NCBI RefSeq assembly: GCF_000013365.1 | Contig: NC_007778.1 | Coordinates: 62,001 to 126,000, forward strand | DNA: 64,000 bases | Origin: Rhodopseudomonas palustris HaA2 | GTDB lineage: Bacteria; Pseudomonadota; Alphaproteobacteria; Rhizobiales; Xanthobacteraceae | Direction of reading: 5' to 3' | Shown here: in pieces, positions 46,459-50,645 of the stretch | Numbering within the stretch: position 1 is the first letter of the stretch | How the letters are laid out: every line of letters starts with the position of its first letter | The notes under the pieces: model-generated | What the model saw: the letters and a program-made list of their open reading frames with translations, nothing else | Told to the model about the DNA's origin: nothing | Databases searched by the model: none | Translations under genes and position numbers: made by a program

Positions 46459-47907
46459 TCACGCGCGGCGCAGCCGCCGCCAGCCGAGCAGGATGCCGCT
46501 GACCGAAATCACCAGCCCCGCCAGCGACAATACAATCACCACGATGTCCCACGCCGGCCGGTGCGCGATCAGCACCGGGAAATCGAAGCTGTGCAGCGCG
46601 TTGAACAGCCAGCGATAGACCCGGCGGCTGCGATCGCTGCGCCCGAGAATTTCGCCGGTCGACGGGTCGAGATGATACCAGGTAGCGGCGGCATCGTCGA
46701 AGCCGGCGCGCAGCACCGGCAGCACGCGCTGATGATGATGCGAGTACCAATAGGCGTCGGGCTCCTCCAGCCGCTGCCGCAGCGTCATCGTGGCGTCAGG
46801 GAGCAGCCGCGCCGCCGCGTCGAAGATCCGCTCCGGTGACAGCGTCCGCGATGCGCCGCTCGCCGGATCGGCCACGCTCTGCGATCCGTCGCGATGCGCC
46901 AGCAGCATCAGCGGCGCGCCGCCGACCCAGATGAAGCGCGCTTCGACGACGCCGGGCCGGTCGCGTGCGGGGAGTGTGGACGCGATCGTCGGCGCGTCGT
47001 GGCCGGCATAGCGCTGCAGCGCCTCGCGACTGTCGCCGCGGCGCGCGAACAGCTCAAACGGATTGACCGACAGCCAGCCCGAGGCCATCCAGGTCAGCAC
47101 CAGTACGCCGGCGACGAGGCCGGTGAGGTGATGCCACGCCATCCAGCCGCGATAGGGCGTGATCCGGCCCGACGCATAGCGCCGCCGCAATCCGGCGCGC
47201 AGCAGCCCGATCCAGATCCCGCTGATCGCGACCAGCAAACAGATCCCAGAGGTCCACATCACCACCTGTCGCCACAGCGGCGCGTCCTGGCGCAGCAAGG
47301 TGAGATAGATCCAGTGCGGAATCGCGCCGAGCCAGTTCCAGACCCGCTCGTGACGATTGGTGTCGAGCACGATCTCGCCGGTCTTCTGCGAGACGTAAAG
47401 CTCGGTGCCGGCATCGTCGCCGAGCCCGATCAGAAACAGCGGCCGCAACGGATCGAACCGCGCGGTGACGCTCCATTGGTCGCGATCGACGATGTCGAGC
47501 AGCGCCGGCGCCACAGCGGCGGGATGATGCCGCGCCACCGCCAGCGCCTGTTCGGGCGATATGTCGCCGAGCGCCCGGCCGTCGACGGCGGAGATCGCCT
47601 GCCGCCGTCTGTTCGTGCCGGCGAGTCGGTACACCGGCTCGCCGTCCTGCATCGCAAGACGGAGTTCACGCGGATAGGTCGTCAGCCCGGCCGCCGCCAT
47701 CGCCTGATCGGGGGCGAGCCGGATTTCGCTGAAGGCGAGATCCGGCAGCGCTGCCCGGCGCTCCTTAGCGTCGAATTGCGGGAACGCCACATACATCATC
47801 ACCACGCCGGAGATGAACCAGATCGCGAACAACAGACAGCACGCGATCCCGAGCCAGCGGTGGCCGAGATACAGCCACCGCTTCAGCCGCCTGGTGATGC
47901 GGCGCAT
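46459..47907 (-). CDS. PepSY-associated membrane protein
   Basis: 482 residues with at least four membrane helices: LGIACCLLFAIWFISGVVMM (about 20), one near 275, one near 315 and a C-terminal pair ending VIVLSLAGLVISVSGILLGW. PepSY-type blocks include PEQALAVARHHPAAVAPALL and ELYVSQKTGEIVLD. A HHLTGLVAGVLVLTW segment resembles the heme-ligand-like histidines of PepSY_TM proteins. It starts 2 bp after the TonB receptor stop, so it belongs to the same riboswitch-controlled unit. Members near siderophore receptors are thought to reduce metals, which is inference here. Confidence 0.85.
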   Translation of the reverse strand: MRRITRRLKRWLYLGHRWLGIACCLLFAIWFISGVVMMYVAFPQFDAKERRAALPDLAFSEIRLAPDQAMAAAGLTTYPRELRLAMQDGEPVYRLAGTNRRRQAISAVDGRALGDISPEQALAVARHHPAAVAPALLDIVDRDQWSVTARFDPLRPLFLIGLGDDAGTELYVSQKTGEIVLDTNRHERVWNWLGAIPHWIYLTLLRQDAPLWRQVVMWTSGICLLVAISGIWIGLLRAGLRRRYASGRITPYRGWMAWHHLTGLVAGVLVLTWMASGWLSVNPFELFARRGDSREALQRYAGHDAPTIASTLPARDRPGVVEARFIWVGGAPLMLLAHRDGSQSVADPASGASRTLSPERIFDAAARLLPDATMTLRQRLEEPDAYWYSHHHQRVLPVLRAGFDDAAATWYHLDPSTGEILGRSDRSRRVYRWLFNALHSFDFPVLIAHRPAWDIVVIVLSLAGLVISVSGILLGWRRLRRA

Positions 47908-47909
47908 CG

Positions 47910-50177
47910 TCAGAACTTGACGTTGTAAGACAGCTCCGCGGTGCGGGGCCGCCCCAGCAGCCATTGGTTGTCGACATAGCTCGACGTCGCATAGACCTTG
48001 TCGAAGATGTTGTAGAGCCGCAGCGATAGCGTCGAGGCGGCGTCCGGCTTCCACTGCAGACCGGCATTGACAAGCGTGTAGCCCGGCATCTCCAGCGTGT
48101 TGGCGGCGTCGGCAAAGCGCTTGCCGACCACCTGCACGCCGGCATTGGCGGACCAGCCGGCCGCAAACGCCCAGGTCAGCCACGCGTTCGAGACGTTGAG
48201 CGGCACGTTGATCGGCACGTTGCCGGCGAAGTTCACGCCCACGTCATTAACTGACTGCACGAAGTCGTCGTATTTCGCCTGCAGGAAGGTGGTGTTGGCG
48301 TCGACCCGCCAACCGTGGTCGAGCGCCAAGCCAACCGACGCTTCGATACCGCGTGACGATTGCTGCCCGACTTGGACGACCTGATCTGGATCTTCCGAAG
48401 AGCGCGCAAGCAGGTTGTTCTTGACGATGTGGTAGCCCGCCAGGGTCCACTCGCCACGCCCGCCCCAGAACGATTGCTTGACGCCGATCTCGACCTGCTT
48501 GCCGGTCGCCAGTTCGAACTTCGCATTGGCGTTGCTCGCCGTCACCAAACCGCCGACCGGATCGACCGCGGTCGAATATTGGCCGTAGAAGGCGAGGTCC
48601 TGGATCGGCGTGTACACCGCCCCGGCCCGCCACGTCGTCGAAGAATACGATCGGGTGTAATTGTTAGCCGGGTTTCGCAGATCGGTCCGCTCCACGGTCG
48701 GCTGGTCCTGCCGGATGCCGCCGATCAGCGCCAATTGCTCGGTGAGTTGCAGACGGTTCTCGGCGAACACCGCATACTGATTGGTGACGCTGGAATAGCC
48801 CGGTCGTGTCAGATCCGGGCTCGCAAACAAGCCCGGATCGAAATTGTACGGATCGACCGACGACGTTCCGCCGTAGGGCGAATTATTGGTGTGCTTGAAG
48901 TTGATGCGGTTGACGTCGAACCCGGCGACAAAGGTGTTTTCCAGTCCGAACAGATGGCCGCGCACCGTCGCATCCATGCGGTCGCCAATCTGCTGCTGGT
49001 CGTGGAAGATCTCCAGATAAGTGCTGCGGTCGACCTGGCGGGTGGTCGGGTTGAAGGCGTATTCCTCCGCGCTCTTCCAGTGCCTGCGGCTGTTCAGATA
49101 GTACAGCGCGTTGCGGACGGTGATGCTGTCGGTCACCTGCCACTCGGACTTCAACTGCGTCCAGCTGTCCTGATAGCGGATGCTGCTGTCGCCGACGTTG
49201 TAGTTCTTGAAACGCAGCGATTCGTCGAGCCGGCCATTGACCAGCGGCGTGCCGTAATACAGCGACGGGTGGCGGTCGCCATAGGCGGTGGACAGGGTCC
49301 AGGTCAGGTGGTCGGTCTGCTTCACCTTGACGGCGGCCGAGACGGCGATGTTCGAAGTCTTGTCGCGATCGACCCAACCGTCGGACATGTTGCCGGTGGC
49401 GGTGATGCGATAGGAGACATCCTTGTTGATCGGACCACCGGAGTCGACCGCGATCCGTCGCGTCAGATTGGTGTCGAGCGACACTTCGGCCTGGTTGCGC
49501 TGCACGTCGAGCGGCTGCTTGGTGATCACGTTGATGGCGCCGCCGATCGCGCCTTCGCCGTACATCACCGAGGCGGGGCCGCGTAGCACCTCGATGCGCT
49601 CGGCCGACCAGGTGTCGAACGGGAAGGTCACGGTGCCGGCGCCGACATACAGGCGGGTGCCGTCATACAGGGTCATCACCGAACCGGTGCCGCTGAAACC
49701 GCGGGTCGAGAACACCACGCCGCCATTGCCCGGCTCCGGTGTTGCCGTGATGCCTGTGGCGTTCTGAGTGACCGCGTCGAGCACATCGCGCTGGCCGCGC
49801 TCGGCGATGGTCTGTGCGGTGATGATGTCGACGGAGGCGGGGGTCTGCAGCGGCGTCAATCCGAGGCGGCTGGCGGTCGATGCCATCGTGCCGAGATTGA
49901 AGGTCGGCACGGCTGCGACGGCGGCTGACGGCGCGGCAGCAGGCGCGGCAGGCGGGCGTGACGCGGGCGCCGAGGCCCGGCGCGTCCGCGACGAGCCGGC
50001 CGCGGACGAAGCCGCGCGCGGCTTGGACGGCCGCGCGGTCTGGCCTTCGACCACGATCGGGTCGAGGCCGCGCGGCGCGGATTGGGCGTGGCCGGCAGCG
50101 GGCCACAGCAGAGCCGTCAGGGCGACGGAGGACAGCAGGCGACGGTTGCGCCCGGAAGCAGTCGGAGAGGGAGACAT
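47910..50177 (-). CDS. TonB-dependent outer membrane receptor under B12 riboswitch control
   Basis: 755 residues. The signal peptide ends at about AGHAQ (32). A Pro/Ala/Arg-rich stretch (40-95) precedes the plug: TPASVDIITAQTIAERGQRD, GVVFSTRGFSGTGSVMTLYD, RIEVLRGPASVMYGEGAIGG and AINVITKQ. The barrel ends with Phe (ELSYNVKF). By sequence it looks like the ferric-siderophore (FhuA/FhuE-like) group. The leader carries a cobalamin riboswitch, so the natural cargo may instead be cobalamin, a corrinoid or a cobalt complex. The PepSY gene is next in the operon. Confidence 0.9.
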   Translation of the reverse strand: MSPSPTASGRNRRLLSSVALTALLWPAAGHAQSAPRGLDPIVVEGQTARPSKPRAASSAAGSSRTRRASAPASRPPAAPAAAPSAAVAAVPTFNLGTMASTASRLGLTPLQTPASVDIITAQTIAERGQRDVLDAVTQNATGITATPEPGNGGVVFSTRGFSGTGSVMTLYDGTRLYVGAGTVTFPFDTWSAERIEVLRGPASVMYGEGAIGGAINVITKQPLDVQRNQAEVSLDTNLTRRIAVDSGGPINKDVSYRITATGNMSDGWVDRDKTSNIAVSAAVKVKQTDHLTWTLSTAYGDRHPSLYYGTPLVNGRLDESLRFKNYNVGDSSIRYQDSWTQLKSEWQVTDSITVRNALYYLNSRRHWKSAEEYAFNPTTRQVDRSTYLEIFHDQQQIGDRMDATVRGHLFGLENTFVAGFDVNRINFKHTNNSPYGGTSSVDPYNFDPGLFASPDLTRPGYSSVTNQYAVFAENRLQLTEQLALIGGIRQDQPTVERTDLRNPANNYTRSYSSTTWRAGAVYTPIQDLAFYGQYSTAVDPVGGLVTASNANAKFELATGKQVEIGVKQSFWGGRGEWTLAGYHIVKNNLLARSSEDPDQVVQVGQQSSRGIEASVGLALDHGWRVDANTTFLQAKYDDFVQSVNDVGVNFAGNVPINVPLNVSNAWLTWAFAAGWSANAGVQVVGKRFADAANTLEMPGYTLVNAGLQWKPDAASTLSLRLYNIFDKVYATSSYVDNQWLLGRPRTAELSYNVKF

Positions 50178-50296
50178 CGAGGGACTCGCGGTTAACGTGG
50201 CACGTCACCGCAAGCCAAGGCCTTGCCGCAGCCGGACGGCCGCAGTTCGACACTCACCAGGACACCCCGCCCGATGCGCTCGCGTGTGACCACGAA

Positions 50297-50467
50297 CGAC
50301 GGCAGGTCTCCTGGCTCGCGGGTCCGTGCCTTTCGCCGCCTTCCCAGGCACGAGGCCCAGTGGCGTGTGGCGAAAGGCTCGCCGCTCACAGTTGCGGGGG
50401 CAGCCGCGGAATCGGATCGCGCGCGACCCTCACCGCATTCCCTATTGATCCCTTGCGGGAACCGTCG
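50297..50467 (-). ncRNA. Cobalamin (B12) riboswitch
   Basis: On the minus strand the aptamer runs 5' to 3': GGTTCCCGCAAGGGATC, AATAGGGAATGCGGTGAGGG, GATTCCGCGGCTGCCCCCGC, AACTGTGAGCGG, CCACTGGG, CTGGGAAGGCG and the B12 box AGCCAGGAGACCTGCC (50316-50301). CGACGG at the 5' end and CCGTCG at the 3' end can pair as P1. All landmark elements of the class are in order. The TonB receptor ATG at 50177 is 120 bp further, enough for an expression platform. B12 binding would lower expression. Confidence 0.95.
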
Positions 50468-50473
50468 GGCGCG

Positions 50474-50503
50474 ACCGTACTGGAGCTCTCCGAATGCTGT
50501 CAA
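50474..50503 (-). promoter_or_regulatory. Candidate sigma-70 promoter for the riboswitch transcript
   Basis: On the minus strand TTGACA (50503-50498), 18 bp and TACGGT (50479-50474), ending a few bases before the aptamer 5' end at about 50467. The -35 is perfect; the -10 matches three of six. Placement relative to the aptamer supports it. Confidence 0.55.
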
Positions 50504-50612: not shown

Positions 50613-50645
50613 GCAACGTTATAACATTACATATACTGTCCGCAA
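50613..50645 (-). promoter_or_regulatory. Zur-like palindrome overlapping a candidate promoter
   Basis: The imperfect palindrome GCAACGTTATAACATTAC (50613-50630) resembles the TGTTATA/TATAACA core of Zur operators. On the minus strand it overlaps TATAAC (50623-50618), which with TTGCGG (50645-50640) at 16 bp spacing could be a promoter reading toward the receptor. The region is markedly A+T rich compared with its surroundings. The assignment to Zur is by eye. Confidence 0.4.

Follow-up and report, generated by a model that had tools for sequence, protein, structure and literature searches.

A cobalamin riboswitch, a TonB-dependent receptor and a PepSY_TM protein in Rhodopseudomonas palustris HaA2: a candidate operon for cobalt-chelate uptake

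In Rhodopseudomonas palustris HaA2 the genes of a TonB-dependent receptor and a PepSY_TM membrane protein are placed behind a cobalamin riboswitch, and the question raised by this locus is which compound the receptor imports. The evidence considered here comes from the window (the whole stretch of 64,000 nucleotides that was analysed), from the rest of the host genome and from the loci of related receptors. The features of the window that enter the argument are the following:

50613-50630, read as GTAATGTTATAACGTTGC on the minus strand: Zur-type palindrome (a single match across the window; 100 shuffles gave none)
50474-50503, minus strand: probable promoter of the riboswitch transcript (positions of TTGAC(A) and TAnnnT conserved among relatives)
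50284-50481, minus strand: cobalamin riboswitch aptamer, RF00174 (cmscan, 130.5 bits, E 1.5e-32, full length)
50411-50415, minus strand: CCGAT in loop L5, forming the kissing contact with L13 (complementary to ATCGG, 50275-50271)
50271-50275, minus strand: ATCGG in loop L13, forming the kissing contact with L5 (complementary to CCGAT, 50415-50411)
50185-50214, minus strand: expression-platform hairpin CTTGCGGTGACGT-GCC-ACGTTAACCGCGAG (13 pairs; folds alone)
47910-50177, minus strand: TonB-dependent receptor, 755 aa, CrtA-like (PF00593, PF07715, TIGR01783, CrtA match, pocket, tree)
46459-47907, minus strand: PepSY_TM protein, 482 aa, CrpH/FoxB-like (PF03929, alignments, Foldseek)

The riboswitch leader and the gene pair

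The riboswitch and the gene pair are certain. A B12 riboswitch on the minus strand had been proposed in the original prediction and was borne out by cmscan, RF00174 giving a single match in the window that covers all 189 model positions and lies far above the gathering score of 31.5 bits; it is also the top-scoring of the seven RF00174 matches in the genome (5.33 Mb, one contig). The span first proposed, 50297-50503, takes in the promoter and most of the aptamer, but the Rfam match reaches 13 bases further downstream. The promoter consists of TTGACA (50503-50498), a spacer of 18 nt and TACGGT (50479-50474). A generic promoter scan found no match at these two elements; nevertheless, the promoter placed just before the aptamer in the original prediction is upheld and is probably real, since TTGAC(A) occurs at the same place in nearly all inspected relatives, followed by TAnnnT just before P1, a conservation that rules out a chance occurrence of TTGACA. 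Transcription would be expected to start at or adjoining P1.

In the alignment of 40 relatives, the five bases of the L5-L13 kissing loop are paired in 85% of cells, with modest covariation and few double changes, and those of the hairpin at 50214-50185, whose 3' end lies 8 nt ahead of the receptor ATG, in 98-100%; as a control, sliding the partners leaves 26-53% of cells paired. The leader pairs are mainly invariant or altered on one side, and the pairing shows conservation more than covariation. The hairpin probably hides the ribosome-binding site, the simplest reading being that of a translational off-switch, and expression lowered by adenosylcobalamin (AdoCbl) is the predicted behaviour of this RF00174 leader.

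The remaining riboswitches of the host precede a second TonB receptor, a run of NiCoT, btuC, btuD, btuF and cobD (locus L009, 6696-11695) and other cob genes, one of them lying upstream of cobN; CobN is encoded in this genome. From its gene order the NiCoT run would place cobalt and corrinoid import under a single switch. The second riboswitch-controlled receptor (L008, 7882-10308) is putatively BtuB-like; its score too lies far under the B12-receptor cut-off (109 of 599.7 bits), and no close solved relative was found for it.

The receptor of the window scored 282 bits against the siderophore-receptor model TIGR01783, over the cut-off, and 99 bits against the B12-receptor model TIGR01779 (equivalog cut-off 599.7). 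Its plug region is weakly similar to B12-receptor models, and BtuB holds merely rank 47 among its fold matches. These results agree with its earlier assignment to the siderophore group rather than to classical BtuB. By far the nearest PDB chain is CrtA of Bordetella pertussis (9rvq, E 1.9e-109), with 35% identity across the whole length and 696 alignable residues. CrtA (BfrG; PDB 9rvq/9rvx) is a receptor for chelated copper in which H358 is essential, and its gene is followed by a PepSY_TM gene in more than 75% of loci (PMC12914433, PMC13038864). Recruitment from the siderophore family, as originally proposed, thus holds in outline, the nearest characterised relative being this copper-chelate receptor and not FhuE. 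The structures 6i96 and 6i97 were considered as a pseudopaline receptor; as both entries bear the title FoxA, they are not used here to argue for a link to a metallophore.

Of the six residues of the CrtA site, the counterparts of E337, Q356, H358, R395 and W265 in the window receptor are E371, I390, H392, H429 and Y308. Among 84 riboswitch-linked receptors, E337 corresponds to Glu in all and H358 to His in 82, Q356 to Ile in all and R395 to His in 71, and W265 mainly to Phe. The metal-facing Glu/His pair is therefore retained in this clade, as read from the alignment with CrtA, and a second His (H429) is gained in most members. Since the same signature is present in two relatives lacking the switch (L115, and L117 on a Comamonas endophytica plasmid), it marks the clade and not the regulation. 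In the tree, CrtA pairs with a Variovorax receptor (L109; 100/100), while the window receptor and the riboswitch-linked receptors form another group (95/99) on a long branch, in which just three rows have no switch. Plain orthology to CrtA was rejected, as it is contradicted by the tree and the pocket.

A PepSY membrane protein had been foreseen after the receptor, and the gene at 46459-47907, which starts 2 bp after the receptor gene, indeed encodes a PepSY_TM protein (PF03929, 66.1 bits; cut-off 28.8). H16, H198, H259, H260 and H439 are invariant in an alignment of 20 sequences, and H198 and H439 correspond, by order and spacing alone, to H200 and H444 of CrpH, the periplasmic pair that is needed in that protein according to the CrpH paper, where the two haems of FoxB are described as well. 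A predicted model (pLDDT 79) had FoxB as its top Foldseek match (7abw, probability 0.99, E 3.6e-4), but with a TM-score of 0.22 over the whole chain, and VIA-align returned single-domain PepSY matches only, the FoxB row being absent. A profile search of PDB sequences from the PepSY alignment gave nothing useful, a sequence match to FoxB being undetectable. The best reading of this protein is that of a candidate FoxB/CrpH-like haem reductase.

Relatives of the pair and their operon partners

The 80 best receptors (50-73% identity) were taken from a scan of genome contigs, so that the frequencies given here are no census. A riboswitch was detected upstream by nhmmer in 77 of them, in alpha- and betaproteobacteria from Bradyrhizobium to Cupriavidus. 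Two of the other three begin at a contig edge, and Bradyrhizobium diversitatis (L040) is the only relative with full upstream DNA but without a riboswitch. The Cupriavidus riboswitches have weak nhmmer scores, yet the loci tested pass Rfam, which also confirmed the riboswitch in 10 distant or plasmid-borne relatives, with switches ahead of distant receptors in Paracoccus, Novosphingobium, Sphingobium, Sphingomonas, Comamonas and Caulobacter. Rfam found no switch before the Variovorax locus, which carries a gene for a SCO copper chaperone and a DUF2946 gene that we take to be CruR. Neither CruR nor a copper chaperone or SCO gene was found among the locus genes beside the window pair.

The next gene encodes a PepSY_TM protein in 66 of the 80 relatives. 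In Cupriavidus basilensis the riboswitch is followed by the genes of the receptor, PepSY and NiCoT (TIGR00802, 419 bits), in that order, and in C. pauculus CobW directly follows the receptor (TIGR02475, 501.7 bits; cut-off 332.1). In Azospirillum, Telmatospirillum, Rhodoplanes, Paracoccus and Comamonas the PepSY gene is replaced by an ABC importer whose substrate-binding protein is 24-29% identical (76-112 bits) to CbtJ of Sinorhizobium meliloti and gave no convincing match to host BtuF. CbtJ was located as the first gene of a riboswitch operon on pSymB, and CbtJKL has been reported as a Co(II) carrier (PMC7689651). Riboswitch and cobalt genes thus share one operon in relatives such as L076, L082, L074 and others; in the window operon itself no cobalt gene adjoins the pair, the cobalt partners being found in the relatives and elsewhere in the genome. 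NiCoT and CobW each occur in few loci, and members of the NiCoT and CbtJ-like families can also carry other metals. CobN is present in all 20 tested genomes with the receptor, a co-occurrence that is anticipated in these genera anyway.

No corrinoid-specific partner (btuCDF, cobU, cbiZ or similar) was seen next to the receptor among the relatives. Because the partners are NiCoT, CobW and CbtJ-like ABC importers and such a corrinoid-specific neighbour was not found, cobalt is favoured over corrinoids; of the ligands originally put forward, a corrinoid, cobinamide or a cobalt chelate, the last is the one now preferred.

Two apparent partners were discarded. A small gene of the Azospirillum operon, considered as CbiX, shows only a 2Fe-2S thioredoxin-like domain in Pfam and was dropped as cobalt evidence. 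The upstream cluster of the B. elkanii type, considered as a zinc ABC operon, consists of genes for a CobW-like GTPase that scores below the cut-off, an amidohydrolase-like protein and an ABC protein of general type.

Several loci of unusual composition were encountered in this survey. On plasmid p2 of Caulobacter sp. FWC26 (L119, 2113-5732) a riboswitch is followed by a CbtB-domain gene, the receptor and the PepSY gene, the last two each annotated as two overlapping pieces and therefore possibly frameshifted. On the Comamonas endophytica plasmid (L117, 6359-8986) a receptor gene belonging to the riboswitch clade lacks the riboswitch and lies downstream of a DUF2946 gene that may encode CruR; this arrangement may be read as copper-type control of a receptor with the cobalt-clade pocket. 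In Methylobacterium sp. Leaf125 (L089, 5020-5407) apparently tandem or partly repeated cobalamin riboswitches precede the receptor; this stretch contains Ns and may be an assembly artefact. A conjugative plasmid of Sinorhizobium meliloti 1132 (L112, 4401-7854) has a cobalamin riboswitch, a DUF1636 gene and a CbtJ-like ABC importer in surroundings with copper-related genes (sulfocyanin-like, CopC/CopD).

The Zur box beside the riboswitch

The Zur-type palindrome of the window lies 132 bp upstream of the aptamer, in a divergent region shared with typA, and was not part of the original prediction. It has 13 of 15 positions in common with the aztA site of Paracoccus, where Zur binding is proven by EMSA. 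The host genome contains one further site (at most 3 mismatches), 75 bp before a ZigA-like gene (590.5; cut-off 600). In the 80 relative loci 21 sites (at most 4 mismatches) were found where a Markov model expects none. Without exception they are located in the riboswitch/receptor control regions, these regions accounting for 8% of the DNA. More sites stand ahead of ZigA and zinc ABC genes in the genomes of the relatives, which bears out the motif.

Besides the window, 20 of the 80 relatives have the box adjoining the switch. Among the 21 sites, 8 are placed upstream of the switch (as in the window, Rhodopseudomonas and Azospirillum) and 12 between switch and gene (Methylobacterium and some Bradyrhizobium), and one belongs to the switch-less L040. 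Because the receptor operon and the divergent typA have this region in common in the window and in Rhodopseudomonas, the box might there act on typA as well, and its assignment to the receptor rests on the other genera. The arrangement suggests joint control of the operon by zinc and B12, Zur binding being predicted from the motif.

A further locus of Bradyrhizobium diversitatis (L142, 10613-16908; G004:C42) encodes a paralogous receptor-PepSY_TM pair, 30% and 38% identical to that of the window, with a Zur box of its own; after the pair come a further Zur box and the genes of two COG0523 GTPases, and Zur-boxed zinc ABC genes occur in the same 17-kb stretch. This pair is a probable zinc counterpart of the window operon.

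As a tentative and rather doubtful explanation, a single cobalt-uptake operon might be read by two sensors, zinc-bound Zur on the DNA and AdoCbl on the RNA, and be on when cobalt is wanted for B12 and when zinc is short, cobalt perhaps standing in for zinc under zinc shortage. A box between switch and gene could then make either shortage sufficient, and a box upstream of the switch might require both.

Proposed function, alternatives and known systems

Based on the available evidence, the receptor and the PepSY_TM protein are best understood as a two-gene cobalt-acquisition operon repressed by adenosylcobalamin, the uptake of a cobalt chelate being its best-supported function and a reasonably probable one. 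We infer the cobalt cargo, the reduction of Co(III) and the direction and logic of the regulation along the following lines. With ample B12, the aptamer would close P1 and the L5-L13 kissing loop, and the hairpin at 50214-50185 would form and hide the start of the receptor message; with scarce B12, the operon would be made. The receptor would then move a cobalt complex across the outer membrane via TonB, and the PepSY_TM protein, with haem on its conserved histidines, would free the metal in the periplasm by reducing inert Co(III) to labile Co(II). Complexes of Co(III) are inert and those of Co(II) labile, which makes a reductase chemically sensible for cobalt. An inner-membrane permease, for which the riboswitch-controlled NiCoT is the likeliest candidate in this host, would then take up the Co(II), and the metal would go on to CobN, the Zur box supplying a zinc input. 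The succession of a receptor, a periplasmic PepSY reductase and a free-ion permease is established for iron in Bradyrhizobium japonicum (FsrB, FeoAB).

The Zur box and the Zur-linked paralogous pair also point to zinc, and the strongest rival is consequently a zinc or mixed zinc/cobalt role, in which zinc, or zinc and cobalt alike, would be imported as complexes with a broad divalent metallophore, the riboswitch and Zur each signalling a separate need that is served by one scavenging system. Such a role would account for the box in the window and the confinement of all 21 sites to the control regions; the motif moreover matches EMSA-proven Paracoccus sites and, in other parts of these genomes, stands ahead of ZigA and zinc ABC genes, and in Bradyrhizobium diversitatis the riboswitch-less receptor has a perfect box and the paralogous pair lies near znu and COG0523 genes. 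The riboswitch, however, is kept much more consistently than the box (at 77 and 21 of the 80 loci, respectively), zinc is not redox-active and would leave a haem reductase without obvious use, and NiCoT and CobW, as direct partners, are linked to cobalt or nickel; we consider this role unlikely.

Import of a corrinoid (cobalamin, cobinamide or another cobamide) by the receptor, with its cobalt reduced in the periplasm by the PepSY protein, is quite improbable. Although BtuB is the classical target of AdoCbl riboswitches, corrinoids too hold Co(III) and the plug bears the weak similarity mentioned above, BtuB or a corrinoid receptor was ruled out as first choice by the model scores and gene partners: the TIGR01779 score and the fold rank of BtuB are low, the nearest relative CrtA binds small carboxylate copper chelates, the receptors of the relatives stand beside no btuCDF, cobU, cbiZ or similar gene, and a further riboswitch-controlled receptor as well as a btuCDF operon are present in the host. 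Alternatively, the pair might be the copper receptor CrtA and the copper reductase CrpH with a replaced regulator, given the identity to CrtA over the whole length, the same PepSY_TM partner and the same essential His and Glu. Against this stand the separate clade with its long branch, the replacement of Q356 by Ile and, mostly, of R395 by His in the riboswitch-linked relatives, and the absence of a CruR or SCO gene next to the window pair, such genes being present beside the true CrtA relative in Variovorax, so that copper appears very improbable indeed. Cobalt-chelate uptake remains the preferred reading.

B12-switched cobalt receptors are of a kind already known as prediction: TonB-dependent cobalt receptors under B12 switches have been proposed, among them that of Novosphingobium aromaticivorans by Rodionov and colleagues, and no cobalt-specific one has been confirmed (reviewed in PMC7689651). 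A search of the literature (open-access full text) brought up no mention of a Zur box at B12-switched receptors, of the pocket signature or of the relation to CrtA/CrpH, and cobalamin goes unmentioned in the CrtA and CrpH papers (PMC12914433, PMC13038864). The present family offers a large and well-bounded set of cobalt-receptor candidates in culturable bacteria, and its copper-receptor sister CrtA, of known structure and binding site, provides a comparison in which single residues become candidates. Altogether, the evidence suggests that receptor-reductase pairs of the CrtA/CrpH type are under copper, zinc or cobalt (B12) control in different lineages, in which case not every such pair would fit the published description as a copper system that serves respiratory oxidases. 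Should the joint control by Zur and B12 be real, the supply of zinc would be coupled to that of cobalt.

Compared with known systems, the window pair resembles CrtA/CrpH in the essential His and Glu and in the PepSY_TM gene directly next, with histidines of matching order and spacing, and differs in having a B12 riboswitch and a Zur box where CrtA has CruR, in the Ile fixed for Gln356 and the His mostly found for Arg395 in its clade, and in the cobalt, not copper, partners of its relatives. With FsrB/FeoAB of Bradyrhizobium japonicum and FoxB of Pseudomonas aeruginosa it shares the scheme of receptor, periplasmic PepSY_TM reductase and free-ion permease; those systems, however, handle ferric siderophores, and the superposition on FoxB is poor. 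BtuB is likewise a riboswitch-controlled TonB receptor, but the window receptor fails the B12-receptor models and has other gene partners. The predicted receptor of N. aromaticivorans, known here from its description in the review, is also a TonB receptor behind an AdoCbl riboswitch and is linked to NiCoT and CobW, whereas in the window pair the PepSY_TM gene adjoins the receptor and NiCoT is encoded elsewhere.
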